From Pseudorhodoferax sp. Leaf274 (GTDB lineage: Bacteria; Pseudomonadota; Gammaproteobacteria; Burkholderiales; Burkholderiaceae_C): a stretch of 64,000 bases of DNA. The first letter of the stretch is position 1. Each line of letters starts with the position of its first letter. Positions 8,464-35,733 of this stretch are shown one piece after another. The notes beneath the pieces were generated by a model. It was not told where the DNA came from and made no database searches. It was given only the letters and a program-made list of their open reading frames with translations. Where the stretch lies: positions 724,946-788,945 of the forward strand of contig NZ_LMNA01000030.1 in the NCBI RefSeq assembly GCF_001422445.1, read 5' to 3'. The translations under genes were made by a program, and so were the position numbers.

Positions 8464-9402
8464 GTGCAGTACCTGTCGCGCTGGGTCCTCCAGCTGATCG
8501 TGACGGTGGTCGGCGTGGTCACCGTCACCTTCTTCCTGATGCGCGCGATTCCGGGCGACCCGGCGCTGTACATGCTCGGCGACTACGCCACCGCCGATGC
8601 GGTGGCCAGCCTGCGCGCCAAGCTGGGCCTGGACCTGCCGGTGGCCGAGCAGTACCTGCGCTTCATGGGGCGCGCGCTGAGCGGCGACCTGGGCGCATCC
8701 GTGGTCACCGGCCAGAGCGCGCTCAAGGAAGTCATGGACAGCGTGCCCTGGTCCATCGCGCTGACGGGCTGGGGCATGGCGATCGCGGTGGCGCTCGGCG
8801 TGCCGCTGGGCGTGGTGTCGGCCAGCAGGCAAGGCACCTGGGTCGACACCACGGTGATGGTGGTGGCACTGGGCGGCATCTCCTTCCCGGTGTTCTGGAT
8901 CGGGCTGGTGGCCATCCTCGGGCTGTCGCACTGGGCCGGGCTGTTCCCCACGCTGGGCGCCTCCAGCGGCGGCGGCTTCTGGACGGCCATGCACCACCTG
9001 GCCCTGCCGGCGCTGGTGCTGGGCGTCTCCGTCGCGGCCTACATCGCCCGGCTCACGCGTTCGGCCATGCTGGAAGTGCTGGGCCAGGACTACATCCGCG
9101 TGGCGCGCGCGCTGGGCGTGCCGAAGCGGCGCGTGCTCTACCGGCTGGCGCTGCGCAACGCGGCCGTGCCCATCCTGGCGGTGATCAGCGTGACCTTCGC
9201 CTGGTCGCTGGGCAACGCCATCCTGGTCGAGATGGTGTTCAGCCGGCCCGGCCTGGGCTCCACCATCATGAAGGCCGTGCTGGCACGCGACTACCAGCTC
9301 GTGCAGGCCGGCCTGCTGGTGCTGGCCGCAGCCGTGGTGCTGGTGAACGCCACCTGCGACCTCCTTTACGTGGCCATCGATCCGCGCCTGAAGTCACGAT
9401 GA
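8464..9402 (+). CDS. ABC importer permease, DppB type
   Basis: A 312-residue inner-membrane permease with an N-terminal helix, a periplasmic segment containing DLPVAEQYLRF, and five further helices. The EAA-loop region (DYIRVARALGVPKRRVLYRLALRNA) is the contact site for the ATPase. The start is GTG, three bases after the binding-protein stop. It overlaps the DppC-type permease by ATGA and forms a heterodimer with it. Confidence 0.92.
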   Translation: MQYLSRWVLQLIVTVVGVVTVTFFLMRAIPGDPALYMLGDYATADAVASLRAKLGLDLPVAEQYLRFMGRALSGDLGASVVTGQSALKEVMDSVPWSIALTGWGMAIAVALGVPLGVVSASRQGTWVDTTVMVVALGGISFPVFWIGLVAILGLSHWAGLFPTLGASSGGGFWTAMHHLALPALVLGVSVAAYIARLTRSAMLEVLGQDYIRVARALGVPKRRVLYRLALRNAAVPILAVISVTFAWSLGNAILVEMVFSRPGLGSTIMKAVLARDYQLVQAGLLVLAAAVVLVNATCDLLYVAIDPRLKSR

Positions 9403-10331
9403 AACAAGACACTCTGCTCCCCCCGGGCGGCGCGCACGCGCAGGCCGCCGCGCCGCTGGAAACGCCGACCCTGGCACGCCGGCCGCCGCGCTGGAAGACC
9501 ATGCTGTCGCATCCGGGCCTGGCGATCGGCGCGGCCATCATCGCGGCGATGTTCGTCGTCGCGCTGGGCGCGCCCTGGCTGGCACCGCATTCGCCGACGG
9601 CGACCGACCTGATGGCCACGCTGGCACCGCCCTCGCTGGCCTACCCGCTGGGCACCGACCAGTTCGGCCGCTGCATCCTGTCGCGCCTGATCTGGGGCTC
9701 GCGGGTGTCGCTGCAGGTGGCGATGTCGGTGGTGCTGCTGTCGCTGTCGATCGGCACGCTGGTCGGCGCCATCGCCGGCTACGCGGGCGGCTGGGTGGAA
9801 CGCGTATTCACCACGCTGACCGACGTGCTGCTGGCCTTCCCGGGCTTTTTGCTGGCGCTGGCCATCGTCGCGGCGCGCGGCTCCTCGCTGGAATCCATCA
9901 TCATCGCCGTGTCGGTGGCCTACATCCCGCGCGTGGCGGTGGTCATGCGCTCGGTGGTGCTGACCATCAAGCCGCGGCCCTTCGTCGAGGCATCGCACGC
10001 GATCGGCATGTCGCACCTGCGCATCCTGTTCAAGCACATCGTGCCGAACGCGATGCCGCCGGTGATCGTGGTGGCCACCGTCAGCGCGGCCACGGCGATC
10101 CTGGCCGAGGCCGGGCTGAGCTACCTGGGGCTGGGCGTGCAACCGCCCACGCCGACCTGGGGCAACATCATTTCCGACGGGCAGGGCCTGATCGCGGACC
10201 ACCCGCTGATCTCGCTGTCGGCCGGGCTGTGCATCGCCGTCACCGTGGTGGCGTTCAACCTGATGGGCGACGGCCTGCGCGACACGCTGGACCCGCAGAT
10301 GCGCAAACAGACCGGGGCCTCGCTGCTATGA
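9399..10331 (+). CDS. ABC importer permease, DppC type
   Basis: A 310-residue permease with the N-terminal OppC-type region (first helix GLAIGAAIIAAMFVVALGAP), the LGTDQFGRCILSRLIWGSR motif characteristic of DppC/OppC, and an EAA loop around FVEASHAIGMSHLRILFKHIVPN. The start ATG overlaps the DppB stop by four bases, and its own stop overlaps the next ATPase gene, so translation is tightly coupled. Confidence 0.92.
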   Translation: MKQDTLLPPGGAHAQAAAPLETPTLARRPPRWKTMLSHPGLAIGAAIIAAMFVVALGAPWLAPHSPTATDLMATLAPPSLAYPLGTDQFGRCILSRLIWGSRVSLQVAMSVVLLSLSIGTLVGAIAGYAGGWVERVFTTLTDVLLAFPGFLLALAIVAARGSSLESIIIAVSVAYIPRVAVVMRSVVLTIKPRPFVEASHAIGMSHLRILFKHIVPNAMPPVIVVATVSAATAILAEAGLSYLGLGVQPPTPTWGNIISDGQGLIADHPLISLSAGLCIAVTVVAFNLMGDGLRDTLDPQMRKQTGASLL

Positions 10332-11365
10332 ACCAGGTGACCCCCCTTCCTGCCGCGGCCGATGGCGCCTACGCGCTGGACATCCGCAACCTGCGCACCA
10401 CCTTTCCGGGCGCGTACGGCCGCGCGGCCATCGTCGACGACGTGTCCCTGCGCCTGCACCCCGGCGAGATGCTGGCCGTGGTGGGCGAATCGGGCTCGGG
10501 CAAGAGCATGAGCTTCATGTCGGCCCTGGGCCTGGTGGCGCCGCCCGGCCGGGTGGAATCGGGCCAGGTGCTGGTCAACGGCACGGACCTGCTCAAGCTG
10601 TCGCCGCAGGCGCTGCGCCTGCAGCGCGGCAAGGCCATCTCGATGATCTTCCAGGACCCGCTGAGCGGGCTCAACCCTGTGTTCACCGTCGGCCAGCAGA
10701 TCGTCGAGGTGCTGCAGGCGCACCTGCCGCTCGGCGCCGCGCAGGCCAAGGCCCGCGCCATCGGGCTGCTGGAGAAGGTGCAGATCCCGGATGCCGCGCG
10801 CCGCTTCGACCACTACCCGCACCAGTTCTCCGGCGGCATGCGACAGCGTGTGCTGACGGCGATGGCGATCGCGCTCGACCCCCAGGTGCTGATCGCCGAC
10901 GAGCCCACCACCGCGCTGGACGTGACGGTGCAGGCGCAGGTGCTGGACCTGATCGACGGCCTGCGCCGCGACACCGGCATGGCGGTGGTGCTGATCACGC
11001 ACGACCTGGGCATCGTGGCGCGCCATGCGGACCGCATGGCCGTGATGTACGCCGGCCGCTTGGTGGAGCAGGGCACGGTGCCCGAGGTGTTCGCCAGGCC
11101 GAGCCACCCCTACACCGTCTCGCTGCTGCGCAGCGTGCCCAACCTGGACGAGCCAGCCGGCCAGGAATTGATGTCCATCAGCGGCACGCCGCCGCTGCCC
11201 GGCAGCGTGCGCCAGGGCTGCGCGTTCGAGGCCCGGTGCTACCTGGGCAAGGGCCGCGAGGCCTGCCGGTCTGCCCGGCCGGCGCTGCAGGCCGTCGACG
11301 GCGGCGAACACCTCAGCGCCTGCCATTTCTCGGAAACAGTCACCCTGGAGGCGCGCGCAGCATGA
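10328..11365 (+). CDS. ABC importer ATPase, DppD type
   Basis: A 345-residue ATPase with Walker A GESGSGKS, signature FSGGMRQRV and Walker [13 protein letters not shown]. The C-terminal oligopeptide-transporter domain contains several Cys ([16 protein letters not shown]), as in DppD-type subunits that carry an Fe-S or Cys cluster. It pairs with the next ATPase to energise uptake. Confidence 0.92.
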
Positions 11366-21081: not shown

Positions 21082-21450
21082 ATGGCTGTCAATTACGGAT
21101 CCAAGCGCGTCGTCGTCGGCGCGCACTACGGCCTGCGCGACTGGCTGGCGCAGCGCGTCACCGGCCTGCTCATGGCGCTGTTCACGTTCATCGTGCTGGC
21201 GCAATTGCTGCTGGCCAAAGGCCCGATCGGCTACGACCTGTGGGCCGGCATCTTCGCGGCCCAATGGATGAAGGTGCTGACCTTCTCCGTGATCATCGCC
21301 CTGCTCTACCACGTCTGGGTGGGCATGCGCGATGTGCTGATGGACTACATCACCGCAGCAGTCTGGCTCCGTCTCGCGCTCCAGATTTTCACCATCGTCT
21401 GGCTGGTCGGCTGTGCCGGCTGGGCCATCCAAGTCCTCTGGAGACTGTGA
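21082..21450 (+). CDS. sdhD: succinate dehydrogenase hydrophobic membrane anchor
   Basis: A 122-residue protein with three helices. It begins with GAHYGLRDWLAQRVTGLLMALF, and a conserved His/Asp region YHVWVGMRDVLMDY supplies the second haem ligand and the quinone-site Tyr/Asp. It follows sdhC by 23 bp. Confidence 0.95.
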   Translation: MAVNYGSKRVVVGAHYGLRDWLAQRVTGLLMALFTFIVLAQLLLAKGPIGYDLWAGIFAAQWMKVLTFSVIIALLYHVWVGMRDVLMDYITAAVWLRLALQIFTIVWLVGCAGWAIQVLWRL

Positions 21451-21452
21451 GC

Positions 21453-23258
21453 ATGAGCTACACCAAGCAGAACATCAACAAGCGCAAGTTCGACGTCGTC
21501 ATCGTCGGCGCCGGCGGCTCCGGCATGCGCGCCGCACTCGAACTGTCGCGCGCCGGCCTGTCCGTCGCATCGCTGTCCAAGGTCTTCCCGACGCGCTCGC
21601 ACACGGTGGCGGCGCAGGGCGGCGTGTCGGCCTCGCTGGGCAATATGTCGGAGGACAACTGGCACTACCACTTCTACGACACCATCAAGGGCTCGGACTG
21701 GCTGGGCGACCAGGACGCCATCGAGTTCATGTGCCGTGAAGCCCCCAAGGTCGTGATCGAGCTCGAGCACTTCGGCATGCCGTTCGACCGCAACCCCGAC
21801 GGCACGATCTACCAGCGCCCCTTCGGCGGCCACACCGCCAACTACGGCGAAAAGCCCGTGCAACGCGCCTGCGCCGCGGCAGACCGCACCGGCCACGCCA
21901 TGCTGCACACGCTGTACCAGCAGAACGTCAAGGCCAAGACAAACTTCTTCGTCGAGTGGATGGCGCTCGACCTGATCCGCGACGCCGACGGCGACGTGGT
22001 CGGCGTCACCGCATTGGAGCTGGAAACCGGCGAGCTGTACGCCCTGCAGGCCAAGGCCGTGCTGCTGGCCACCGGCGGTGCCGGCCGCATCTTCGCGGCG
22101 TCGACCAACGCCTTCATCAACACCGGCGACGGCCTGGGCATGGCGGCGCGCGCCGGCATCCCGCTGCAGGACATGGAGTTCTGGCAGTTCCACCCGACCG
22201 GCGTGGCCGGCGCGGGCGTGCTGCTGACCGAAGGCTGCCGCGGCGAAGGCGCCATCCTGCTCAACAGCAACGGCGAACGCTTCATGGAGCGCTACGCGCC
22301 CACGCTGAAGGACCTGGCGCCGCGCGACTTCGTTTCGCGCTCCATGGACCAGGAGATCAAGGAAGGTCGTGGCTGCGGTCCCAACAAGGACTACATCCTC
22401 ATGAAGCTGGACCACCTGGGCGCCGACACCATCCGCAAGCGCCTGCCCTCGGTGGAAGAGATCGGCCACAACTTCGCCAACGTCGACATCACCAAGGAAC
22501 CGATCCCCGTGGTGCCGACCATCCATTACCAGATGGGTGGCATCCCGACCAACATCAACGGCCAGGTCGTCACGCACGACGGCCAGCAGAACAATATCGT
22601 GGGCGGCCTGTACGCCGTCGGCGAATGCTCCTGCGTGTCGGTGCACGGCGCCAACCGCCTGGGCACGAACTCGCTGCTCGACCTGCTGGTGTTCGGCAAG
22701 TCCGCCGGCAAGCACATCGTCGAATTCGTCAAGGGCAGCGGCGAGCACAAAGCGCTGCCGGCCGATGCCGGCGACAAGACGCTGGCACGCCTGAACCAGC
22801 TGCAGGAGTCCACCGACGGCGCCTACGCGCAAGACGTGGCCAACGACATCCGCGCCACCATGCAGCAGCACGCCGGCGTGTTCCGCACGCAGGCCAGCAT
22901 GGACGAGGGCGTGACCAAGGTCAATGCGATCCGCGACCGCGTCTCGGGCGTCACGCTCAAGGACAAGTCCATGGTCTGGAACACGGCCCGCATGGAAGCG
23001 CTCGAAGTCGACAACCTGATCGAAGTCGCCCAGGCCACCATGACCTCGGCCGCCGCACGCAAGGAATGCCGCGGCGCCCACACGGTCTACGACTACGAGC
23101 ACCCGGCCGACCACGCCGAGTTCCCGCTGGGCCGCAACGACAAGGAATGGATGAAGCACACGCTGTGGCACAGCGCGGGCAACAACCTGACCTACAAGCC
23201 CGTCAACCTCAAGCCGCTGACGGTTGACTCCATTCCGCCCAAGGTCCGCACGTTCTAA
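21453..23258 (+). CDS. sdhA: succinate dehydrogenase flavoprotein subunit
   Basis: A 601-residue flavoprotein that oxidises succinate to fumarate. It shows the dinucleotide-binding [17 protein letters not shown], the FAD-attachment segment SHTVAAQGG with the covalent His, the catalytic [11 protein letters not shown] and R-rich TEGCRGEGA, and the C-terminal WMKHTLWH. It starts two bases after sdhD. Confidence 0.97.
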
Positions 23259-24272: not shown

Positions 24273-25583
24273 ATGAAACTAGCCGAAAACAAAGCCACGC
24301 TGTCGTTCAGCAATGGCAGTCCCAGCGTCGAGTTGCCGGTGTACCAGGGCAGCGTGGGCCCGGATGTCGTGGACATCCGCAAGCTGTACGCCCAGACCGG
24401 CATGTTCACGTACGACCCGGGTTTCCTCTCGACGGCTGCCTGCCAGTCCGCCATCACCTACATCGATGGCGACAAGGGCGAACTGCTGTACCGCGGCTAC
24501 CCGATCGAGCAGCTGGCCACCAACTGCGACTTCCTGGAAACCTGCCACCTGCTGCTGTACGGCGAGCTGCCGAACACGGAAGACAAGGGCAAGTTCACCA
24601 AGCTCGTGACCAACCACACGATGGTCAACGAGCAGATGCAGTTCTTCCTGCGTGGCTTCCGCCGCGATGCGCACCCGATGGCCATCATGACCGGCCTGGT
24701 CGGCGCGTTGTCGGCCTTCTACCACGACAGCACGGACATCAACAATCCGGAGCACCGCAACATCTCCGCGATCCGCCTGATCGCCAAGATGCCGACGCTG
24801 GTGGCGATGGCCTACAAGTACACCATCGGCCAGCCGTACATGTACCCGCGCAACGACCTCAGCTATGCAGGCAACTTCCTGCACATGATGTTCGCCACGC
24901 CCTGCGAGGAGTACAAGGTCAGCCCGGTGCTCGAACGCGCGCTGGACCGCATCTTCATCCTGCACGCCGACCACGAGCAGAACGCCTCCACCTCCACCGT
25001 GCGCCTGTGCGGCTCCTCGGGCACGAACCCGTTCGCCGCCATCGCGGCCGGCGTGGCCTGCCTGTGGGGCCCGGCCCACGGCGGCGCCAACGAGGCGGCG
25101 CTGAACATGCTCTACGACATCCAGAAGGAAGGTGGCGTCGAGAAGATCGGCGAGTTCATCAAGAAGGTCAAGGACAAGAACTCCAGCGTCAAGCTGATGG
25201 GCTTCGGCCACCGGGTCTACAAGAACTACGACCCGCGCGCCAAGCTCATGCAGGAAACCTGCAACGAGGTGCTGACCGAGCTGGGCCTGGAAAAGGACCC
25301 GCTGTTCAAGCTGGCCAAGGAACTGGAGAAGATCGCGCTGGAAGACGAGTACTTCGTCTCGCGCAAGCTGTACCCGAACGTGGACTTCTACTCGGGCATC
25401 GTGCAGCGCGCCATCGGCATCCCGGTGCCGCTGTTCACGGCCATCTTCGCGCTGGCCCGCACGGTGGGCTGGATTGCCCAGCTGAACGAGATGATCGGCG
25501 ATCCCGAGTACAAGATCGGCCGCCCGCGCCAGCTGTTCACGGGTTCCGTCAAGCGCGACGTGCAGCCGCTCGCCAAGCGCTAA
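24273..25583 (+). CDS. gltA: citrate synthase
   Basis: A 436-residue type II (hexameric, NADH-sensitive type) citrate synthase that condenses acetyl-CoA with oxaloacetate. Catalytic residues lie in [28 protein letters not shown] and NVDFYSGIV. An in-frame GTG six bases upstream exists, but the ATG at 24273 matches the family start. It ends the sdhCDAB-sdhE-gltA unit and is followed by a strong terminator. Confidence 0.97.
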
Positions 25584-25605
25584 GCTCTGCTCGGCCTTCA
25601 CACAC

Positions 25606-25637
25606 ATGCCGCCTGGTGCAAGCCAGGCGGCATTTTT
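25606..25637 (+). terminator. rho-independent terminator after gltA
   Basis: A perfect 11-bp stem (ATGCCGCCTGG with CCAGGCGGCAT), a six-base loop and five T residues. It closes the sdh-gltA operon and separates it from the lyase gene. Confidence 0.92.
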
Positions 25638-25677
25638 CATGGCGGTGCCACTGCTGCTGAGCCGCTGCCCTTAGCGC

Positions 25678-25691
25678 GATGTTATGAATCG
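25678..25691 (+). promoter_or_regulatory. TGTTATG motif upstream of the ammonia-lyase homologue
   Basis: GATGTTATGAATCG on the coding strand, about 155 bp before the ATG at 25846. The same TGTTATG core, with a GTGA or AATCG continuation, occurs upstream of the DUF917 operon and of the hydantoinase gene. It is a candidate binding site for the LysR protein encoded within the locus. Confidence 0.45.
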
Positions 25692-25845
25692 CTGACAAAA
25701 AAGCAGTAGGCAGCATGTTCGATGGCTTCCTAGAATTTTTCGCCCGTATGCACCATCCGCGGTGTGCAAGGGCGTCATTCAACGTATACGCAGCCAATTT
25801 TCCACCGCCGGTGGTCGTTGGCCGCATCCGCCTAGGAAGCCTTTC

Positions 25846-27489
25846 ATGTTTCGATTTTCCCGGTACGCGCTGGTCTTTGTCGCCTTGCAGCAAGCCGCCT
25901 GCCTGTCCCATGCCGACGTGGTGTTGGACGGCCGATCCGCCACCCCAGAGAGCATCGCCCGCATCGCCGATGGCGAAAAGGTGCGCATCGATCCCGCCGC
26001 GCTGCGGCGCGTCGCCCAGGCACATCGCGTACTGCTGGAGGCCGCGCAGGCGGGCCAGCAGATCTATGGCTTGACGACCGGCGTCGGCCTGAACAAAGAC
26101 CGTGCCATGGTCGACGCCCGCGGCAAGCTCTCGCAGGACATCATCGACGCGTCCAGCCGCTTCAACATCGGCCTGTTGAAGGCACACGGCGGCGGCACCG
26201 GTCCCGACATGGCCCTGCGCACCGCGCGCGCCACCATGGCCGCCCGGCTCAACGCGATGCTCGACGGTGGCGCGGGCGTGCAAAGCGGCATCGTCGACAC
26301 CTACGTGCAGTTCCTGAACCGCGGCATCACGCCCGTCATGCCGTCGGCCGGCTCGATGGGCGAGGCCGACATCACCATCCTCGGCCACGTCGGCCTGGCC
26401 ATGCTCGGCGACGGAGAGGTGTATTTCCAGGGCCGCAAGCTGCCGGCCGCGGAAGCATTGCGCCAGACCGGCGTGGCGCCGATCAAGCCCTTCGGCAAGG
26501 ATGCACTGGCCATCCTCAGTTCGAACGCCTACGCAAGCGCCATGGCTGCGCTGGCCCTGGACGACATGGCGCGCCTGCGCACGGTGTCGAAACTGGTCTA
26601 CGCGCTGAGCCTGCAGGCGCTCAACGGCAATGTGTCACCGTTCCTGCAGGACACGCTGGCACTGCGGCCCTTTCCCTACACGGCCCAGGCGGGCAGCCAG
26701 TTGCGCGGCCTGTTGGCGGGCAGCAGCATCTGGGACCGCGACGACAAACGCGCGCTGCAAGATCCCTTGAGCTTCCGCTCCGGCGTCTACCTGCTGGGCG
26801 AGGAGGACCGCACCTTCGATGCCACGCGCGCCTTGCTCAACATCCAGCTCAATTCTTCGGACGACAATCCCGGCGTCGCGGTGGACGTGACGCCGCACTC
26901 GAACCGCGCACAGGAGAGCCGCGGCTACGTGAAGGCCGCCGACATCCAGGGCGCCGTCTTGCCGAGCGCGAACTTCGACCCCCTGCCATGGGTCGTGGCC
27001 TTCCAGGAAATGGGACTTGCACTGGCCCACAGCTCGATGGCTTCGGCACAGCGCATCGTCAAGCTCAACGACCCCCATTTCACCGGCCTGCCGCGCTTCC
27101 TCGGCGGCGAAGGCACCGTACATGCGTTCGGTGCAATGGAAAAGCCGGTCATGGCCCTGGCCTCGGAAAACCGCGAGCTGGCGCTGCCAGTGTCCCTGGA
27201 TTACCTGCCCGTGGCCGGCGGCGTCGAAGACATTGCGACGAACGCACCCAGGGTCGTCGAACGCGTGCAGCGCCAAATCGACAACAGCTTCGCACTGCTC
27301 GGCATCGAACTGATCCACGCAGCACAGGCCATCGATCTACGCAAGCAGCAGCAGCCCGGATTCACGCTCTCCCCGCCGACTGCCGAGCTGTACGGAGCAC
27401 TGCGCAAACAGGTGGCTTTCCTGGACACCGACCGACCGATGACGCCGGATTTCCGCGCGGCAGCAGCCCTGCTGGCCAGCTACCGCTGA
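25846..27489 (+). CDS. exported HAL/PAL-family lyase lacking the MIO triad (ergothionase-like candidate)
   Basis: A 547-residue homologue of histidine/aromatic ammonia-lyases. A signal peptide (cleavage likely after CLSHA, residue 23) predicts periplasmic location, unusual for the family. The fold signatures are kept: Tyr74 in IYGLTTGVGLN, NSSDDNPG at 336-343, and Arg311. However, the Ala-Ser-Gly that cyclises to the MIO cofactor is replaced by Glu173-Ala174-Asp175 (GSMGEADITILGH), and the Tyr of QDPYSLR is Leu308. It cannot form MIO, so a different elimination chemistry is expected, as described for ergothionase, which removes trimethylamine from ergothioneine by acid/base catalysis. TAGGAAG is the ribosome site. 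The ergothionase role is inferred from the missing MIO and the neighbours. Confidence 0.75.
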   Translation: MFRFSRYALVFVALQQAACLSHADVVLDGRSATPESIARIADGEKVRIDPAALRRVAQAHRVLLEAAQAGQQIYGLTTGVGLNKDRAMVDARGKLSQDIIDASSRFNIGLLKAHGGGTGPDMALRTARATMAARLNAMLDGGAGVQSGIVDTYVQFLNRGITPVMPSAGSMGEADITILGHVGLAMLGDGEVYFQGRKLPAAEALRQTGVAPIKPFGKDALAILSSNAYASAMAALALDDMARLRTVSKLVYALSLQALNGNVSPFLQDTLALRPFPYTAQAGSQLRGLLAGSSIWDRDDKRALQDPLSFRSGVYLLGEEDRTFDATRALLNIQLNSSDDNPGVAVDVTPHSNRAQESRGYVKAADIQGAVLPSANFDPLPWVVAFQEMGLALAHSSMASAQRIVKLNDPHFTGLPRFLGGEGTVHAFGAMEKPVMALASENRELALPVSLDYLPVAGGVEDIATNAPRVVERVQRQIDNSFALLGIELIHAAQAIDLRKQQQPGFTLSPPTAELYGALRKQVAFLDTDRPMTPDFRAAAALLASYR

Positions 27490-27504
27490 CGCCCCAGGGG
27501 GATC

Positions 27505-27524
27505 GGCCCCGCCGTGGCGGGGCC
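27505..27524. terminator. hairpin between convergent lyase and transporter genes
   Basis: GGCCCCGCC and GGCGGGGCC form a perfect 9-bp inverted repeat with a two-base centre just after the lyase stop. No T-run follows on either strand, so it may be a weak terminator or an RNA-stabilising stem. The remaining roughly 95 bp up to the transporter gene hold nothing else recognisable. Confidence 0.4.
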
Positions 27525-27619
27525 ATCAGGCCCAGCGTCGCGGTCTTCGTCGCGCTTGTGTCGTTTCGGGCCGACCGGTTGTTGCGGTCGGCGCCCGCGG
27601 TCTGGACTGGCGATGCGCG

Positions 27620-28948
27620 TCAGCCCGGCTTGCGGCCCATGCAGGCCAGCGCGACCAGCGCCACGACGCAGGCGGCCATGACATAGAAGGCCGGCGCGAA
27701 CGCCACCTGGGTGGTGTAGTTGATCCAGGTCAGGATCGCCGGGGCAAAGCCGCCCAGCACCGTGACCGCGGTGTTGTAGGAGATCGACATGCCCGACGAG
27801 CGCACGGCCGTCGGGAAAATCTCCGACAGCGCGGCCGGCGCCACGCCCACGAACAGCGCCACCAGCAGGCAGAACGTCGACTGCGCCACGATCAGCGCCG
27901 CCGTCGTGTGGTGGGTCTGCAGCCAGGCCATCAGCGGGTACACGGAGCACAGCAACAGCAACGCGCCCAGCGTCAGCATGGTGCGCCGGCCGATCCGGTC
28001 CGACAGGCGGCCCGCCACCAGACATCCAGCCACCAGGAACACGTTGCCCACCAGCGCGGCCGTGAAGGCCTGCGAGCTGCTGAAGCCCATGCTCTTCTGC
28101 ACGTAGATCGGCATGTAGATGATCAGTGCGTAAGGCCCCACCGCCCACAGCACCGACAGGCCGAATCCCTTGAGCAGCAGGCCGGGATGGCGCCGCACCA
28201 CGTCGAGCAACGGGGCCTTGGGTCGTTCGCCGTGCTGCGTCCATTGGCGCTGCTGCTCCTTGAACTCGGGCGTCTCATCGAGCGCGCGGCGCATCCACAG
28301 GCCCACCGGCGCGATCGCCAGGCCGATGATGAACGGCACGCGCCAGCCCCAGCTGCCGACCTGTTCCGCGGTGAGCAACGTCGTCACCAGCGTGGCCACG
28401 GCCGCGGCCAGCAGGTTGGAGATGCCCATGCTGGCCTGCAGCCAGGACGCGTACTCGCCGCGCCTGCCCGGCGGCGCATGCTCGACCAGGAAGGCGGTGG
28501 CGCCACCGACCTCCCCGCCGGCGGAAAAGCCCTGCAGCACCCGGCCGAGCACGATCAACAGCGGCGCGCCGATGCCGATGGCCGCGTACGGCGGCGCAAT
28601 GGCGATGAGCAGCGTGCCCAGAGCCATGAGCATGATGGTCAGCGTCAGCGCCGCCTTGCGGCCGGCACGGTCGCCATAGGAGCCGATCAGCAGTGCACCG
28701 AGCGGCCGCGCCACGAAGCCCAGGCCGAAGGCCAGGAACGAGGCCATGAGCTGCACCGTGGGGTCGTCGTTCTTGAAGAAGTTCTGTCCGATGTAGACCG
28801 CGAACAGTGCGTAGACGGTGAAGTCGTACCACTCGAGCGCATTGCCGGCCGAGGCCGCGATGATGGCCCGGCGTCCGGCGGCTTCGCGCGTCGATGGGAC
28901 GGGCGGCGCGGGCCCGCGGCCAACGGCATTGAGCGTGGTGTCGTTCAT
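27620..28948 (-). CDS. MHS-family (ProP-like) MFS transporter
   Basis: A 442-residue, 12-helix major-facilitator protein of the metabolite:H+ symporter family. GNALEWYDFTVYALFAVYIGQ and GSYGDRAGRKAALT are family hallmarks, followed by RVLQGFSAGGEVGGA and GRLSDRIGRRTML. Members import betaines, dicarboxylates or aromatic acids with protons. The start is preceded by AGGAG at good distance and overlaps the stop of the urocanase homologue (ATGA). In this locus it may import a betaine such as ergothioneine or, if the lyase is periplasmic, the thio-urocanate it produces (inference). Confidence 0.88.
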   Translation of the reverse strand: MNDTTLNAVGRGPAPPVPSTREAAGRRAIIAASAGNALEWYDFTVYALFAVYIGQNFFKNDDPTVQLMASFLAFGLGFVARPLGALLIGSYGDRAGRKAALTLTIMLMALGTLLIAIAPPYAAIGIGAPLLIVLGRVLQGFSAGGEVGGATAFLVEHAPPGRRGEYASWLQASMGISNLLAAAVATLVTTLLTAEQVGSWGWRVPFIIGLAIAPVGLWMRRALDETPEFKEQQRQWTQHGERPKAPLLDVVRRHPGLLLKGFGLSVLWAVGPYALIIYMPIYVQKSMGFSSSQAFTAALVGNVFLVAGCLVAGRLSDRIGRRTMLTLGALLLLCSVYPLMAWLQTHHTTAALIVAQSTFCLLVALFVGVAPAALSEIFPTAVRSSGMSISYNTAVTVLGGFAPAILTWINYTTQVAFAPAFYVMAACVVALVALACMGRKPG

Positions 28949-30630
28949 GGGAACTCCTGCGGGTTGCATGCTGCGGCAGCGGCGAACTCGGCCGTGTCGA
29001 CGCGGTGGATGGATTTCTTGCGGACTTCGTCCAGCGCTTCTTCGTAGCCGGCATCGGCGTAGCGCAGCACGCCGCTGGCGGTGTCGTTGGTGATGGACAG
29101 GCGCAGCCGCTCGTCGGCCTCGGGCGTGCCGTCGGCGACGACGGTGACGCCGGCGCTGGTCATGTAGCCGCTGTAGCCGCCCCCGCCGGAATGGATGGCC
29201 ACCAGGTCGGCCATCGACGAGCAACTGAGCATGGCGTTGAGCAAGGGCCAGTCGGCGATGGCATCGGAGCCGTCGCGCATGCGCTCGGTCATGATGTTCG
29301 GATGGGCCATGCCGCCGGCATCGAGGTGGTCACGCGTGAACGCGACGGGCCCCTTGAGCCGGCCATCGCGCACCATGGCGTTCACCGCCAGCGCCAGTTC
29401 GGTGCGTTCTCCGTGGCCGAGCCAGGCGATGCGCGCGGGCAGGCCCTCGAACGGAACGTGTTCACGCGCGAGCCGGATCCAGTTCGTGACGATGCGGTTG
29501 TCGGCGAAACGCTGGAGCAGGTAGTCGTCGATGCGGCCGATGTCGGCCGCGTCGTTGGACAGCGCGATCCAGCGGAACGGCCCGATGGCGCGGCAGAACA
29601 GCGGCCGCAGGAAGGCCTCGGTGAAGATCGGGATCTCGAAGGCACGCTCCACGCCGCCATCCCTGGCATGCGTGCGGATCAGGTTGCCGTTGTCGAACAC
29701 CACCGCGCCGCGGTCCTTGAAACCCAGCATGGCCTGGACATGGCGCACGATGGACGTGCGGCTGGCATCCATCAGTGCCGGGATGTCGGTCTGGCGCATG
29801 GCCTTGACCTGCTCCAGCGTGTAGCCGGAGGGCACATAGCCGTAGACCAGGTCGTGCGCCGCGGTCTGGTCGGTCACCACGTCGGGCACGATGCCGCGCG
29901 CGAGGATCTCCGGAAACACGTCGGCCGCATTGCCCAGCAAGCCGACCGACAACGGTACGCGCCGCTGCTGCGCATCCTGGATCAGCGCCAGCGCTTCGTC
30001 CAGGTCGCGCGCCTGCCGCTCGAGGAAACCGATCTTCAGGCGTTTGGCGATGCTGTCCTGGCTCACGTCCACGGCCAGGATGGCGGCATGCGCCATGCGG
30101 CCCGCCAGCGGCTGCGCGCCCCCCATGCCGCCGAGCCCGGCGGTGAGGATGAAACGCCCGCGCAGGTCGCCGTCGAAATGCCGCTCGGCGATGCGCGAGA
30201 AGATTTCGTAGGTGCCCTGGATCACGCCCTGCGAGCCGATGTACTGCCAATCGCCGGCGGTGAGTCCACCCCAGCAGATCAGGTTCTGCTGTTCCCAAGC
30301 GTAGAAGTTCTCGGCCTTGGCCCACTGGCCGACGATGTTGCAGTTGGCCATGATCACCAGCGGCGCACGTGCATGCGTCTTCAGCACGCCGATGGGTTTG
30401 CCCGACTGCACCAGCAGGGTCTCGTCCTCGCCCATGGTTTTCAGCGCCTGCACGATGGCGTCATGGGAAGGCCAGTCGCGCGCGGCCTTGCCGAGCGCCG
30501 CGTAGACGACCAGGCTGGCCGGATCCTCACCCACGGCCAGCACGTTCTCCAGCAGCCGCAGCAAGCCCTCCTGTCGCCAGCCCTTGCAGCGCAGCGTGGT
30601 GCCCCCGGTCACGTCGAATGCGCGCTTCAT
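28945..30630 (-). CDS. urocanase-family hydratase with altered active site (thio-urocanate hydratase candidate)
   Basis: A 561-residue urocanase homologue with the NAD-binding framework intact: LLVQSGKPIGVLKTHARAP, TAGLGGMGGAQPLA and VTDQTAAHDLVYGYVPSG. Residues specific to true urocanase differ. The active-site Cys of LPARICW is Ala402 (LPARIAWLGHG), YGNNIR is NGNLIR, and the HHGGGVGMG loop is HSGGGGYSGYM (480-490). It is overlapped on both sides by its operon partners (ATGA at each end). No hutH with MIO, hutI or hutG is nearby. It most likely hydrates a 2-thio or S-methyl-thio urocanate and is not hutU of histidine utilisation; this is inference from context and residue changes. Confidence 0.78.
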   Translation of the reverse strand: MKRAFDVTGGTTLRCKGWRQEGLLRLLENVLAVGEDPASLVVYAALGKAARDWPSHDAIVQALKTMGEDETLLVQSGKPIGVLKTHARAPLVIMANCNIVGQWAKAENFYAWEQQNLICWGGLTAGDWQYIGSQGVIQGTYEIFSRIAERHFDGDLRGRFILTAGLGGMGGAQPLAGRMAHAAILAVDVSQDSIAKRLKIGFLERQARDLDEALALIQDAQQRRVPLSVGLLGNAADVFPEILARGIVPDVVTDQTAAHDLVYGYVPSGYTLEQVKAMRQTDIPALMDASRTSIVRHVQAMLGFKDRGAVVFDNGNLIRTHARDGGVERAFEIPIFTEAFLRPLFCRAIGPFRWIALSNDAADIGRIDDYLLQRFADNRIVTNWIRLAREHVPFEGLPARIAWLGHGERTELALAVNAMVRDGRLKGPVAFTRDHLDAGGMAHPNIMTERMRDGSDAIADWPLLNAMLSCSSMADLVAIHSGGGGYSGYMTSAGVTVVADGTPEADERLRLSITNDTASGVLRYADAGYEEALDEVRKKSIHRVDTAEFAAAAACNPQEFP

Positions 30631-31727
30631 GCGGCCACCCCGCCGAGCGCATAGGACGCGATCGCGATGCCCATGGCCTTCTCGACCGGCGGATACACGG
30701 CCGGGTCCTTGACCGACGAAGACAGCGGAATCCTGGCCTTGTCCACGTGCAGGATGTGCACCTCCATGCCCTCGCGCAGCTGGCCGGCGCTCACGGGCTG
30801 GCCTTGCGCGTCCAGCGTGGTGATCACGTCGGGATAGGTCGCCAGGCGGCGGCCTTCGCCGTCGTCCACCGCCATGTGTTCGTTCATCACATGGACCACG
30901 CGCCGGCCCGCGCCGGTGCCGATCTCGACCACACCGATGTCGAAAGCCTCCTCGGTGTAGCGCAGCGTGTTGCGCACCACCTTGCCGCTGCCCAGGATGT
31001 GGCCGCCGGTCGCCTTGCAGATGGCGTCGATCACCGCAGCCGCGCCACGCGGCTCGGCCGCCAGGATGGCCTCACCCAGCGCCAGCGCGCGGCTGATGCC
31101 GCCCAGCGCGGCATGCTGGCGGACGTAGGCGCCACGCAGGGGGTTGCGGCAACTCGCGATGAAGCCGCCCGACATGTCCGAAGCCTTGCGCAGGATGGGC
31201 GAGACCTTGGCCGTGGCGCCGCGCACCACGAGTTCGATGTAGGCGTTCCTGGCCCGGTTGCCGCCTGCGGCGGCCTGGATGACCTGGTCGGGGCTGGAGG
31301 CCATGCCGAGCGAGCCCATGTCGCCCGTGGGATGGGCGCGCAGGTCGCCGACCGCATCGACCACCTTGGTGCCCAGCACGGCCGAGGGCAGCCAGCCGTT
31401 GAGCGTGCTGGACATGCCGTTCTGGCCGATGATCAGGCCGTGGATCGGCGCGCCCAGCTCCTGCTGCACGAGCTGCACCGCGCGCACATAGTCCACGCCC
31501 AGCATTTCCCAGTCGGTCAGGCCGCCCGGCGCGCCGATGGCCGCCGCGGTGGCGATCCAGGCATCGTCGGGCACCTCGGCCATCGCCACCAGTTCCGGCC
31601 GGCCGATGGTCACGGCCAAGGTTCCCAACTGTCGGCCGTGCTCGACCCAGCCACCCCCGCCACAGGCGAACACCGAGCCGCCCTTGACCGCCGCCTCGAC
31701 GTCCCCGATCGTCAGAATTCTCCCCAT
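30627..31727 (-). CDS. DUF917 family protein (thiohydantoin desulfurase candidate)
   Basis: A 366-residue DUF917 protein, beginning MGRILTIGDVEAAVKGGSVFACGGGG, with the family's Gly-rich N-terminal motif and ASDMSGGFIASCRNPL in the middle. From memory, this Pfam family has been renamed after an S-methyl thiohydantoin desulfurase activity, and a related enzyme removes sulfur from 3-(5-oxo-2-thioxoimidazolidin-4-yl)propionate in ergothioneine degradation. The ATG at 31727 has GAGGAG eight bases upstream and is preferred over an in-frame codon at 31790. It is the first gene of the leftward operon desulfurase-hydratase-transporter, with four-base overlaps. Confidence 0.78.
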   Translation of the reverse strand: MGRILTIGDVEAAVKGGSVFACGGGGWVEHGRQLGTLAVTIGRPELVAMAEVPDDAWIATAAAIGAPGGLTDWEMLGVDYVRAVQLVQQELGAPIHGLIIGQNGMSSTLNGWLPSAVLGTKVVDAVGDLRAHPTGDMGSLGMASSPDQVIQAAAGGNRARNAYIELVVRGATAKVSPILRKASDMSGGFIASCRNPLRGAYVRQHAALGGISRALALGEAILAAEPRGAAAVIDAICKATGGHILGSGKVVRNTLRYTEEAFDIGVVEIGTGAGRRVVHVMNEHMAVDDGEGRRLATYPDVITTLDAQGQPVSAGQLREGMEVHILHVDKARIPLSSSVKDPAVYPPVEKAMGIAIASYALGGVAA

Positions 31728-31879
31728 CTGTCTCGCTCCTCGCCGCCCAGCCAGCGGCCCCGCATCGTCCGTCGCGGCTTGCGCCGCCATGCACCCGGAC
31801 GAACATTGACCGCGCTTGGAACGGTGCGCGGCTTACCGTTCGCGAGAAATTGTGGAGTTGAAGAGGGCTGCGCCCCAAA

Positions 31880-31907
31880 TCACATTTTGTGAGGGTCACA
31901 TAACATC
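31880..31907 (-). promoter_or_regulatory. LysR-type box plus TGTTATGTGA motif upstream of the DUF917 operon
   Basis: TCACATTTTGTGA (31880-31892) is an inverted repeat of the T-N11-A form. Next to it, read on the minus strand, is GATGTTATGTGA (31896-31907), the motif shared with the other two promoter regions of the locus. It lies about 170 bp upstream of the DUF917 start and 13 bp from the end of the LysR gene. Confidence 0.5.
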
Positions 31908-31920
31908 AAGGCATGGATTT

Positions 31921-32829
31921 TCAGTCGACGGAATGGCCTGACCAGTCGGCTTTCATGGCTTCCAGCGTTTCCACGAAGGCATGTCCCAGGCGCGACAAGG
32001 GCTCGAACGCCGGATGGACGATGAGCACCGGCGCCTTCACCGTGACATTCAGTGGCCGCATGACCACACGCGTCCAGACCGGCCCGGTGGCGGTGATCTC
32101 GTCGATCAGCGCCACACCGACACCGGCCTGCACCAGCGCACAGGCGACATGCACTTGCTGCGCCTCGACCTTGGGCCGCACCTCGAGCCCCGCCTCGGCG
32201 AACAGTTGGCGCACCACCTGCCCGATCGGCACGTCGGCGCCATAGCCGATGAAGTTTTCGCCCGCCAGTTCCTCCAGTGCCACGCTGTTGCGCGCCGTGA
32301 GCGGGTGGTTGGCGGGCAGCGCCACCACCAGGCGGTTGCCATACAGCTGGCGCGACTGCAGGTTGGGATGCGAATCGGCGAGGAACACCACGCCGAGATC
32401 AGCCTGCTGCGACAGCAGCGCCTGGGTCAGCACCTGCGGGATCAACGTGAACAGGCTGACCCGGGCCTCGGGATAGCCGCGCAGGAAGTTGGCGATGGCG
32501 CGCGGGATCAAGCCTTGCCCCAGGCTCGGGCTGCAGGCCACCCGCAGGTGGCCGATGCGGTGCTCGATCAGGTCCTCGGCCACTTCATTGACGCGCTGCA
32601 CGCCCTGGTAGACCGCGTTCACCTCGGTCAGCAGGCGCTTGGCCTCGGGCGTGGGGTACAGCCGGCCCTTGATGCGCTCGAACAGCAGCAGGCCGAGCCG
32701 CTGCTCGGTGTACGACAGCAGGCGCGAGACGGCCGGCTGGGACACGTTGAGCAGCTTGGCCGCGCGGCTGATCGAGCCGGTCAGCATGATCGAGCGAAAG
32801 ACCTCGATCTGGCGGAGGTTGAAACGCAT
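31921..32829 (-). CDS. LysR-family regulator of the thio-imidazole locus
   Basis: A 302-residue LysR-type regulator. The N-terminal helix-turn-helix is FRSIMLTGSISRAAKLLNVSQ-PAVSRLL, followed by the linker helix and a periplasmic-binding-protein-like effector domain (DLGVVFLADSHPN and PANHPLTARNSVALEELAGE). It sits between the leftward desulfurase operon and the rightward hydantoinase genes, the usual place for a local LysR activator. The motif at 32843 lies just upstream of its own start. The inducer is probably a pathway intermediate (inference). Confidence 0.88.
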   Translation of the reverse strand: MRFNLRQIEVFRSIMLTGSISRAAKLLNVSQPAVSRLLSYTEQRLGLLLFERIKGRLYPTPEAKRLLTEVNAVYQGVQRVNEVAEDLIEHRIGHLRVACSPSLGQGLIPRAIANFLRGYPEARVSLFTLIPQVLTQALLSQQADLGVVFLADSHPNLQSRQLYGNRLVVALPANHPLTARNSVALEELAGENFIGYGADVPIGQVVRQLFAEAGLEVRPKVEAQQVHVACALVQAGVGVALIDEITATGPVWTRVVMRPLNVTVKAPVLIVHPAFEPLSRLGHAFVETLEAMKADWSGHSVD

Positions 32830-32842
32830 GGCATTAACTTGC

Positions 32843-32859
32843 TGTTATGTGAATCGAAT
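32843..32859 (+). promoter_or_regulatory. TGTTATGTGAATCG motif in the lysR-hydantoinase intergenic region
   Basis: TGTTATGTGAATCGAAT on the plus strand, about 120 bp upstream of the hydantoinase gene and 14 bp upstream of the LysR start. The core equals the minus-strand motif in front of the DUF917 gene, and its AATCG tail equals that of the lyase site. TTAT-N9-ATAA within and just after it is a weak dyad. Confidence 0.5.
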
Positions 32860-32974
32860 AAACAAGCATAAGACGGACGACCTGCAAGCTCGCAGAATTT
32901 GGCGGTCAGGCAACGCACCGACGTCCACCGGACGCTCGCAGCGCGGCCTCATCCACCGAAAAAAGGACAACCGA

Positions 32975-34342
32975 ATGAGCGACTTCGACCTGGTCATCGT
33001 GGGCGATTGCGTGGACGAACACCGGGTGACACCCGACGGCTGGCTCGGCGTGCGCGATGGGCGCATCGCCGCGCGCGGCACCGGCACGCCGCCAATGGCC
33101 CGCGAACGCGTGGACGCCACCGGCCAGTGGGTGATGCCCGGCGTCATCGATGGCCAGGTGCACGCCGGCAGCCAGGCCAACCAGGAAGGACTGGGCTGGG
33201 CCTCGCGCGCGGCGGCGGCCGGCGGCGTCACGGTGATGGTCGACATGCCCTACGACGACCCCGAACCGGTGGCCTCGCGTGCCCAGCTCGATGCCAAGAT
33301 CGCCGAGGTCGAACGCGATTGCCACGTGGACGTGGGGTTGTTCGGCACCCTCAACGAACGGCATGGCCTGCAGGCCGCGGCCGGGCTGATCGAAGGCGGC
33401 GTCTGCGCCTTCAAGTTCTCCACCTTCGAGGCCACGCCTGGCCGCTTCCCGCGCGTCGACGAAGACGACCTCTACGAGGCCTTCCGCCTGATCGCGCCTT
33501 CCGGCCTGGTCTGCGGCGTGCACAACCAGATGCAGGAACTCACGCGCAAGCACATCGGCCGGCTCGTCGAGGCCGGCGACACCGGCTGGGACGCTTTCCT
33601 GCGCGCGCATCCGCCCTTGATCGAAAACCTGGCCACCGCGCTGATCTACGAGATCGGCGCGGAAACCGGCGCCCGCGCGCATGCGGTGCACGTGTCCACC
33701 TCGCGCGGCTTCGAGCTGTGCAACATGTACCGCCGCGCCGGACACCAGGCCAGCATCGAGACCTGCATCCAGTACCTCATGCTCAACCATGAGGAACACA
33801 CCAGGAAATTCGGGGCGAAGACCAAGCACTACCCACCGATCCGGCCACGCGCCGAGATGGAGCGGCTGTGGACCCACATCGCCAACGGCGAATGCACCTT
33901 CGTCTCATCGGACCACGTGAGCTGGGGCCTGGAACGCAAGGGCAACCCCAACGTGTTCAAGAACGCCTCGGGCGGCCCGGGCCTGGAGACGCTGCTGCCC
34001 GCGTTCTGGACCGGCTGCGAGGAGCGCGGCATTTCGCCGACCATGGTGGTGCGGCAGTTGTGCGCCAACCCGGCCCAACATTTCCTGCTCGACGACCGCA
34101 AGGGATCGCTGGCCGTGGGCAAGGACGCGGACATCGTGATCGTGCGCCCGGAGCGCCATGCGTTCGATCCGTCGAACAGCCTGGCCGCCGTCAACTGGAG
34201 TTCGTTCGAAGGCCGACAGTTCAACGTGAAGGTGGCCGCCACCTATTGCCGCGGCGTGCTCGCCTTCGACGGCCACGCCGTACGCAACAAAAAGGGCTTC
34301 GGCCAGTTCCTGCGGCCCCGGGCCGCCGCGGCCACGGCATGA
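32975..34342 (+). CDS. hydantoinase/dihydropyrimidinase-like amidohydrolase
   Basis: A 455-residue cyclic amidohydrolase. The family's metal-site landmarks are Lys147 (AFKFS, the carbamylated Lys), His183, His239 (AVHVST) and Asp313 (SSDHVSW). The first metal motif is odd: D-G-Q-V-H (59-63) replaces the usual D-x-H-x-H, so one zinc-ligand His is Gln61. Either one metal is lost or another ligand substitutes. AAAAGGAC precedes the ATG. Next to an N-carbamoylase and a desulfurase, ring opening of hydantoin-5-propionate to N-carbamoyl-glutamate is the most probable reaction. Allantoinase-type activity is the alternative. Confidence 0.82.
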   Translation: MSDFDLVIVGDCVDEHRVTPDGWLGVRDGRIAARGTGTPPMARERVDATGQWVMPGVIDGQVHAGSQANQEGLGWASRAAAAGGVTVMVDMPYDDPEPVASRAQLDAKIAEVERDCHVDVGLFGTLNERHGLQAAAGLIEGGVCAFKFSTFEATPGRFPRVDEDDLYEAFRLIAPSGLVCGVHNQMQELTRKHIGRLVEAGDTGWDAFLRAHPPLIENLATALIYEIGAETGARAHAVHVSTSRGFELCNMYRRAGHQASIETCIQYLMLNHEEHTRKFGAKTKHYPPIRPRAEMERLWTHIANGECTFVSSDHVSWGLERKGNPNVFKNASGGPGLETLLPAFWTGCEERGISPTMVVRQLCANPAQHFLLDDRKGSLAVGKDADIVIVRPERHAFDPSNSLAAVNWSSFEGRQFNVKVAATYCRGVLAFDGHAVRNKKGFGQFLRPRAAAATA

Positions 34343-35700
34343 GCGCCGCCCGGCCGCCCGAAGGCGCTCGCTCCGCAGCCGCAGGCGAAGGTGCCCGAGT
34401 GAACCACCCATCTGCCTTTTCCACGCCCATGCGCACTCCCCAACCCCCACTGAACGCCGAACGCCTGTGGGCGCGCGTCGAGGCGCTGTCGAAGATGACG
34501 ATGCCCGACATCCCGTGGACACGCCGCGCGTTCTCGCCCTTGTTCCTGCAGTCGCGCGACTGGCTGCGCCAGCAGTTCCTTGACGCCGGCATGGCCGTGC
34601 ACCTGGACGCCGGCGGCAATCTCGTCGGCCGGCTGGCCGCACGGCGCGAAGGCGCCCAGGCCAAGCCCATCGCCACGGGCTCGCATTGCGACACGGTGAT
34701 GATGGGCGGGCGCTTCGACGGCATCATCGGCGTGCTGGCCGGCATCGAGGTGGCGCACACGCTGCACGAGTACGGCATTGCGCTGGCCCACCCCTTCGAG
34801 GTCATCGACTTCCTGTCGGAAGAGCCGAGCGACTACGGCATCTCCTGCATCGGCAGCCGGGCGCTGTCGGGCCAGTTGCCGAGCGACATGTTGCGGGCCA
34901 CCAACCCGGACGGCGAAACCCTGGCGCAAGGCCTGCGCCGCATCGGCGGCAACCCCGACGCGCTGGGCCAGGCCTTGCGCGCCCCGGACAGCACGGCCGC
35001 CTTCGTCGAGTTGCACATCGAACAGGGACCTGTACTGGAGACACGCGGGCTGCCCATCGGCGTGGTGACCAACATCGTCGGCATCCAGCGCGTGTCCATC
35101 GTCGTCGAAGGCCAGCCCGACCACGCCGGCACCACGCCGATGGACATCCGCCGCGACGCGCTGGTGGGCGCTGCCGGCGTGATCGAAGCCGTGCACCAGC
35201 GCGCCTCGGCGCTCACGGGCCGGCCGCACTATGTGGTCGCCACCATCGGCCGGCTGACGCTCACACCCAACGCCTCCAACGCCGTGCCAGGCCGTGTCGA
35301 GATGATGATGGAGGTGCGCAGCGAGAGCGCCGAGGTGCTGGACAGCTTCGCCCGCGAGGTCATGGCCGCGGTCGAGGCGCCGTTGCGCGAGCTGCGCGTC
35401 GCAGCCCACGTCACGCCGGTGAGCCGTTCCAAGCCGACCGACTGCGCGCCCTGGGTCATGGACACCATCGAACGTGCGGCAGGCACGCTGGGCTACCGGT
35501 CGATGCGCCTGCCCAGCGGAGCCGGCCACGACGCGGTGTACATGGCGCCGACCGGCCCGATCGGCATGATCTTCATTCCCTGCCTGGGCGGGCGCAGCCA
35601 TTGCCCGCAAGAATGGATCGAGCCCGCACAGTTGCTGGACGGCACGCGCGTGCTGTACCAGACCGTGCTCGACCTCGACCGCAAGCTGGCGGCCGGCTGA
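34339..35700 (+). CDS. M20-family N-carbamoyl amino acid amidohydrolase
   Basis: A 453-residue (from the overlapping ATG) Zn-dependent hydantoinase/carbamoylase-type enzyme of family M20. Metal and catalytic residues are visible: ATGSHCDTVMMGGRFDG (His116, Asp118, Asp127), FLSEEPSDYG (Glu161-Glu162), VELHIEQGP and SGAGHDAVYM. The first 30 residues are non-conserved, so the GTG at 34399 or the ATG at 34429 could be the real start; the ATGA overlap with the hydantoinase gene favours 34339. It would split N-carbamoyl-glutamate to glutamate, CO2 and ammonia. Allantoate or other ureido acids are alternatives. Confidence 0.85.
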   Translation: MSAARPPEGARSAAAGEGARVNHPSAFSTPMRTPQPPLNAERLWARVEALSKMTMPDIPWTRRAFSPLFLQSRDWLRQQFLDAGMAVHLDAGGNLVGRLAARREGAQAKPIATGSHCDTVMMGGRFDGIIGVLAGIEVAHTLHEYGIALAHPFEVIDFLSEEPSDYGISCIGSRALSGQLPSDMLRATNPDGETLAQGLRRIGGNPDALGQALRAPDSTAAFVELHIEQGPVLETRGLPIGVVTNIVGIQRVSIVVEGQPDHAGTTPMDIRRDALVGAAGVIEAVHQRASALTGRPHYVVATIGRLTLTPNASNAVPGRVEMMMEVRSESAEVLDSFAREVMAAVEAPLRELRVAAHVTPVSRSKPTDCAPWVMDTIERAAGTLGYRSMRLPSGAGHDAVYMAPTGPIGMIFIPCLGGRSHCPQEWIEPAQLLDGTRVLYQTVLDLDRKLAAG

Positions 35701-35733
35701 ACCTGGGCGATCGCTGGTTTCCGGCAACAGGGT

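Follow-up and report, generated by a model that had tools for sequence, protein, structure and literature searches.

Where in the cell would a bacterium make the first cut in ergothioneine? The question is raised by a block of seven genes at positions 25846-35700 of a 64,000-nucleotide stretch of DNA from Pseudorhodoferax sp. Leaf274 (contig NZ_LMNA01000030.1, forward strand; hereafter the window, in whose positions all coordinates are given). The block encodes an ammonia-lyase homologue, an MHS-family transporter, a urocanase-like hydratase, a DUF917 protein, a LysR regulator, a hydantoinase-like protein and an M20 protein. We consider, with a probability of roughly three in four, that it is an acquired, LysR-regulated unit in which ergothioneine is cleaved in the periplasm, the MHS protein imports the resulting thiourocanate, and ErtB, ErtC, ErtD and ErtE convert it to glutamate. 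In this scheme the lyase, exported by Sec, would eliminate trimethylamine (TMA) from ergothioneine in the periplasm without the 4-methylideneimidazole-5-one (MIO) group, and the MHS transporter would carry in the thiourocanate anion together with protons. In the cytoplasm, ErtB would hydrate thiourocanate to thiohydantoin-propionate, ErtC would strip off its sulfur, ErtD would open the hydantoin, and ErtE would then release L-glutamate. From sequence comparisons we infer the substrate of the lyase, its periplasmic location, and the direction and substrate of the MHS transporter.

The downstream enzymes identify the pathway. In a scan with NCBIfam models, the hydratase scores 1038.7 bits with thiourocanate hydratase (NF058530, cut-off 930), the DUF917 protein 606.2 bits with thiohydantoin desulfurase (NF058529, cut-off 440), the hydantoinase-like protein 694.4 bits with ErtD (NF058538, cut-off 600), and the M20 protein, scanned from 34396 on, 653.6 bits with ErtE (NF058540, cut-off 520). 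The original prediction had left it open whether the substrate was ergothioneine or S-methyl-ergothioneine, and the hydratase and the DUF917 protein do match both kinds of model. The S-methyl models, however, fall below their cut-offs (S-methyl thiourocanate hydratase NF058531, 760.9 bits against 880; S-methyl thiohydantoin desulfurase NF058532, 267.7 bits against 450), and on these curated cut-offs we rejected degradation of S-methyl-ergothioneine as very improbable. Because all four downstream steps lie above curated cut-offs and the S-methyl models below theirs, the block most likely digests ergothioneine to glutamate, which bears out the predicted complete pathway. That pathway is the already known five-step route; the novelty lies in the exported lyase. 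No ergothionase model was among the matches of the scan, and no model of the ergothioneine sulfonate pathway, whose specific enzymes were not searched for, turned up in it. Ordinary histidine utilisation (hut) would explain why the hydratase also exceeds the broad hutU cut-off (698.9 versus 375 bits), and is contradicted by several findings: the lyase has lost MIO and reaches only 270.9 of the 539 bits set for hutH, hutI, hutG and hutF have no match within 30 kb around it, and the genome has its own hut locus on a different contig, with a histidine ammonia-lyase (HAL), a HutU 50% identical to the block hydratase, and a HutI (472 bits, cut-off 298). We have practically discounted this reading, in agreement with the original prediction.

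The lyase resembles an ergothionase at its active site. Around the MIO site it reads GSMGEA-DITIL where the genome's own HAL reads GSVGASGDLAPL; Ala-Ser-Gly is lost and the segment is one residue shorter, an identical loss to that of the Treponema denticola ergothionase (SSIGEG-DITTL). Tyr74, His114, Asn227, Lys406 and Glu461 each have an identical counterpart in that enzyme, whose structure (6s7j) is also the best PDB match by sequence (E 5e-80). An AlphaFold model of the lyase, built from 13 sequences with a mean predicted local distance difference test score (pLDDT) of 84 and with residues 1-21 below 50, retrieved 6s7j first in Foldseek (E 3.6e-33), followed by a HAL (E 2.1e-27); the aligned 6s7j chain begins at the domain, so that the comparison covers the gene from there on. 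A 2026 paper (PMC13405746) describes ergothionase as free of MIO. The loss would fit trimethylammonium as the leaving group: because it leaves easily, no MIO may be needed. A second ergothionase was not found in the genome, where the one further lyase match at E 1e-5 or below retains its MIO motif.

In a tree of 38 rows (N-termini removed before aligning; near-duplicates L040 and L053 excluded), 31 exported-group lyases, L027 included, form one clade (99/97), within which the lyases of the window and of Burkholderia arboris (L025) are sisters (99/95). The T. denticola ergothionase branches just outside this clade (91/69, not starred) on a long branch, in a root region that is itself long-branched. 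From one set of nine lyase loci, L013 (cut short) and L016 and L017 (25-29% identical) were excluded from the analyses. A third lyase group (L057-L060, in L072-L074) is 29-32% identical, retains a signal peptide and has Gln in place of His114; its MIO site reads GSEGAN or GSQGVN.

What sets the window lyase apart is its N-terminus, from which it appears to be exported from the cytoplasm. It carries a Sec-type signal that passes a strict rule of our own (not SignalP), which demands that the hydrophobic stretch have a mean Kyte-Doolittle hydrophobicity of 1.9 or more, with no acidic residue up to its end, a basic residue or His ahead of it, and a small-x-small pattern after it. The rule passes 32 of 34 clade rows (two near-duplicates among them), none of six signal-less ErtA or HAL proteins, none of 52 cytosolic controls and four of eight exported controls, all controls being annotated coding sequences that we labelled ourselves. 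The two clade rows that fail are L027 (Sinorhizobium meliloti pSymA), which has Asp in its n-region, and L028 (Polaromonas), whose start is unclear; ErtB to ErtE, the MHS protein and LysR of the window fail as well. The L027 lyase (8965-10605; strain 1021) is 56% identical, has a signal-like N-terminus, and is annotated in some other strains' records as hutH, histidine ammonia-lyase. When candidate starts were listed for 19 loci, the exported clade had a signal-like stretch ending at a similar place upstream of the domain (in B. arboris, MQRFLMRSAVALALFAAVPAFA-DVTLDGRS), and the lyases concerned come from Burkholderiales, Paracoccus, Campylobacterota and a Holophagaceae metagenome-assembled genome (MAG). 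The start codon of the window lyase is preceded by a Shine-Dalgarno-like AGGAAG; this, and the retention of the extension in relatives, led us to reject the idea that the signal is a start-codon artefact.

The same observations bear on an ordinary cytosolic Ert pathway, in which the extension would not be a working signal and the MHS protein would import ergothioneine itself. Such a pathway would suit the signal-less remainder of the block enzymes, the four other ert clusters (L033, L035, L036 and L077) whose lyases the strict rule rates as signal-less, that of L077 having passed a looser rule, and the betaine carriers among the relatives of the MHS protein (a ProP match). It would leave unexplained the recurrence of the signal in the four lineages just named and the AGGAAG at the ATG, as well as the related loci, described below, that place the lyase beside periplasmic-type reductases, and we regard it as unlikely.

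Export of the lyase and presence of the transporter go together. We compared twelve ert clusters, namely the window and those 11 plasmid records, out of 19 matching DUF917, that stand at 47.9% identity or more (L025, L029, L031-L036, L075-L077). An MHS gene is present in all three whose lyase is exported (window, L025, L029) and, within the stretches fetched, in none of the remaining nine; most of the nine carry ATP-binding cassette (ABC) or tripartite ATP-independent periplasmic (TRAP) transporter genes. Besides the four with signal-less lyases, these nine include five (L031, L032, L034, L075, L076) in which no match to the lyase lies within about 9 kb. By our arithmetic, three of three versus none of nine is a 1 in 220 outcome, with two independent cases because window and L025 are sisters. 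The MHS proteins beside exported lyases (window, L009, L025, L029) are 62-70% identical among themselves; the closest paralogue in the window's own genome is 41% identical. Although the L029 lyase sits on a different branch of the tree and is 41.6% identical to the window lyase, its MHS neighbor is 64% identical to that of the window, which looks like two assemblies of one pairing. L009, the Holophagaceae MAG, has LysR, MHS and lyase genes and no ert matches in its 21.6 kb. Two of the plasmid ert clusters without a lyase match, L032 and L034, have TRAP transporter genes alongside, and could possibly be scavengers of thiourocanate made by others.

By comparison with its relatives, the block is a single horizontal acquisition. 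In all five other same-genus genomes gltA adjoins lysR-leuC-leuD at a distance of about 160-165 bp, and the 6 kb fetched at each empty site holds no match to the lyase or ertC. Aligned with the empty site of the best-matching relatives, the window loses homology near 25581 and regains it near 35719-35721, just past ertE. Since homology resumes directly after ertE, the lyase would have arrived together with the ert genes. In the window, gltA ends at 25583 and the lysR-leuCD segment bounds the block on the other side; we found no convincing flanking repeat at the block edges. The lyase is present in one of six genus genomes and in at least 1 of 299 family, 5 of 399 order, 3 of 369 class and 1 of 398 phylum genomes (window's own counted in each case; threshold E 1e-100 for the family and 1e-75 elsewhere, the large searches scoring the first few candidates per genome).

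A promoter motif in common suggests that the block is one putative LysR regulon. TGTTATG, which we first spotted by eye in the promoter gaps, has three copies in the 64 kb, one in each of three block promoter gaps, the lyase gap included. None of 5000 random triples of equal-length stretches, mostly coding, had a 6-mer that was both exclusive to the three and present in all of them. The case for a regulon rests on these positions and not on the frequency of the motif. T-N11-A is the LysR pattern, and the motif can be extended to TAACN5GTTATG, for which the window holds 12 matches with two mismatches allowed (5.9 expected). B. arboris L025 has exact copies at two places and Microvirga L031 at three. 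The window LysR is 63% identical to the LysR of the L025 ert cluster, 42% to that of L031, and 60% to the one beside MHS and lyase in L009, where no match to the longer site is better than two mismatches and none is near the lyase. Two other candidate motifs were dropped: ATGTTATGNNAATCG is nothing special (7 matches, 3.4 expected), and TGTTATGTGA has two exact copies, with 9 of 100 shuffles reaching as many when one mismatch was allowed. Taken together, the signal peptides in the window lyase and across its clade, the co-conserved MHS gene, the common promoter motif and the single insertion strengthen two proposals of the original prediction, an exported first enzyme and the import of thiourocanate following a periplasmic first step.

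Exported lyases also occur in other company, which raises the question of their substrate. The L014 and L026 lyases, 61-65% identical to that of the window, stand beside HutU-type hydratases (hutU model, 940.5 and 964.8 bits; thiourocanate model, 671.5 and 688 bits, under the cut-off of 930). The L030 lyase belongs to a hut cluster that also holds TRAP genes, and is the sister (100/100) of the ert-linked L029 lyase. These relationships would suit a lyase that acts mainly on hercynine (histidine betaine), with only the other genes serving thiourocanate, or one that takes both betaines. For the window lyase, inserted with ertBCDE and having a promoter motif in common with them, we consider this quite unlikely. 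In L014 (2977-8471), L026 (5926-8661) and L030 (1069-9608) the exported lyase is near hutU and other hut genes, a possible hercynine-to-urocanate route; the L014 stretch has hutU, hutI and hutF and no hutH match. An ornithine-cyclodeaminase-like gene is near the lyase in L014, L026 and L028.

In a further set of loci the partner is a flavin reductase. At all four Campylobacterota loci (L010, L011, L012, L015) the lyase adjoins a flavocytochrome c subunit and two tetraheme cytochromes. The flavocytochrome gene of L011 (12824-14538, a Campylobacter MAG) is split over two open reading frames, possibly by a frameshift or an assembly fault, and its two pieces were aligned apart. In one family of the order, the lyase occurs in 13 of 67 genomes at 24 places, of which 21 were examined with flanks (L047-L049, partial or stop-bearing, were excluded), and a flavin reductase adjoins it at 20 of the 21; the exception is L074, and in L072 one reductase is common to two lyases. 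We compared the reductases at residues named in a paper on the Shewanella oneidensis urocanate reductase UrdA (PMC7921117; UrdA numbering throughout). Eight retain Glu177, Phe243, Tyr373, Asp388, Arg390, Phe391 and Arg411; 13 retain Arg411, His520 and Arg560 but replace Tyr373 by Gly and Asp388 by Ile; two are of a third kind. The lyase clades of that family match the reductase type, with seven UrdA-linked (98/98) and eight second-type-linked lyases (96/96), from which we infer that the two types have different substrates. The pair of exported lyase and flavin reductase is thus a candidate module for hercynine or ergothioneine respiration. Within 30 kb around the window lyase, the search for a UrdA-like reductase gave one weak match (27.6%, 21216-22712), which we read as sdhA. 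L028 has no ert, hut or reductase partner, its neighbors being a tricarboxylate-type substrate-binding protein and the ornithine-cyclodeaminase; L023, which has an internal stop, is incomplete, as is L091, which has runs of N.

From these contexts we lean slightly towards a broader view, in which exported MIO-free histidine-betaine lyases, that of the window included, would be an unrecognised family that serves as an interchangeable periplasmic front end. Which partner is present would decide whether their product is imported and assimilated (by ert with MHS, or hut with TRAP) or reduced in place as a respiratory electron acceptor. Lyases linked to UrdA, in which the urocanate pocket is intact, would use hercynine, and second-type-linked ones ergothioneine with reduction of thiourocanate, TMA and (thio)imidazole propionate being released.

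Several points weigh against the scheme of periplasmic cleavage and thiourocanate import. The strict signal rule was set after a looser version had flagged 8 of 52 cytosolic controls and the signal-less lyase L077, for which reason the looser one was dropped. The window lyase, at a hydrophobicity of 1.96, lies near the threshold of 1.9, and the start codons of most rows were picked by script. The MHS protein stays under the curated NCBIfam cut-offs of TIGR00883, TcuC and ProP, which leaves thiourocanate a putative substrate, and ProP, a relative, carries betaines. With 3 copies in the window against 5.6 expected, GTTATG shows no excess, and its positions alone are unusual. Close kin beside a HutU below the thiourocanate cut-off imply that the clade of the lyase is not bound to ergothioneine, and in the stretches seen no ert, hut or reductase partner accompanies L027, L090 or L091.

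The features of the block and the reductases beside exported lyases elsewhere are collected in the table. All seven genes of the original prediction lie where it had placed them. Its layout of three transcription units with overlaps inside each holds for ertC-ertB-MHS and ertD-ertE, where four-base overlaps join ertC to ertB, ertB to MHS and, only if ErtE starts at ATG 34339, ertD to ertE; it fails for the lyase, because this is a single-gene unit, and LysR forms a fourth unit. In all 11 ErtD proteins aligned (window and ten loci), the first His of HxH, the usual amidohydrolase motif, is Gln (DGQVH or DAQVH), possibly reflecting an altered metal site; the Lys, two His and Asp motifs are retained in this alignment, which leaves out L036 (Deinococcus).

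Table. Features of the block in the window, and loci with reductases beside exported lyases
Feature	Position or loci	Strand	Remarks
Lyase (ErtA-like, MIO-less, ergothionase candidate)	25846-27489	+	6s7j best PDB match by sequence and fold
Predicted signal peptide MFRFSRYALVFVALQQAACLSHA of lyase	25846-25914	+	cut approximately after residue 23 (by eye)
MHS-family transporter, proposed thiourocanate/H+ importer	27620-28948	-	below cut-offs of TIGR00883, TcuC and ProP
ErtB, thiourocanate hydratase	28945-30630	-	NF058530
ErtC, thiohydantoin desulfurase (DUF917)	30627-31727	-	NF058529; start ATG 31727
LysR regulator of block	31921-32829	-	PF03466/PF00126
ErtD, hydantoin-5-propionate amidohydrolase	32975-34342	+	NF058538; start ATG 32975
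ErtE, N-carbamyl-L-glutamate amidohydrolase (M20)	34339-35700	+	NF058540; start ATG 34339 or GTG 34399
Putative LysR site, lyase upstream	25672-25686	+	1 mismatch to TAACN5GTTATG
Putative LysR site, ertC upstream	31899-31913	-	2 mismatches to TAACN5GTTATG
Putative LysR site, between lysR and ertD	32835-32849	+	exact TAACN5GTTATG
Whole acquired block, between gltA and lysR-leuC	25582-35718		edges approximate
UrdA-type reductase beside exported lyase	L018, L019, L061-L066		
Second-type reductase beside exported lyase	L010-L012, L015, L020-L022, L062, L067-L071

With a periplasmic first step, if that is indeed its place, the cell could do without ergothioneine import, and TMA and thiourocanate could leak to neighbors. 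Cross-feeding would then be expected, an idea prompted by the five of twelve ert clusters without a lyase match nearby, two of them with TRAP genes. If the broader view is true, a lyase-reductase family in other bacteria would be a further source of TMA and of (thio)imidazole propionate. In the literature searched, we found no account of an exported lyase with an MHS transporter and no paper that has "urocanate reductase" and "ergothioneine" together; in one set of papers listed, the only one that names ergothionase uses "periplasm" in another sense. Should the Burkholderia sp. HME13 ergothionase (BAM63550) have a signal peptide, part of the novelty falls. According to the 2026 paper (PMC13405746), ergothionase has been definitively identified in few microorganisms only.

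Comparison with known systems places the locus as follows. Models of the S-methyl enzymes NF058531 and NF058532 match the window proteins over nearly their full length, but the window proteins miss the curated cut-offs. UrdA of S. oneidensis belongs to the family of reductases that relatives of the window lyase adjoin, whereas no UrdA-like reductase is near the window lyase itself. The T. denticola ergothionase 6s7j, reportedly described by Maurer in 2019, has the MIO-less HAL fold, the deletion and the Tyr, His, Asn, Lys and Glu positions in common with the window lyase, and differs in sequence, with 34% identity over the fold alignment. The five-step bacterial catabolism of ergothioneine is said to have been worked out by Beliaeva, Leisinger and Seebeck (ACS Chem Biol, 2021). 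Its four downstream steps are all represented in the window above the NCBIfam cut-offs. By contrast, the window lyase carries an export signal and is 30-31% identical to the signal-less ert-cluster lyases of Shinella, Ochrobactrum, Deinococcus and Rhizobium SL42, and the window has the MHS gene that the nine other clusters lack. The lyase appears to be one of a family of exported enzymes that has drawn little notice and whose members in other genomes lie beside respiratory genes.

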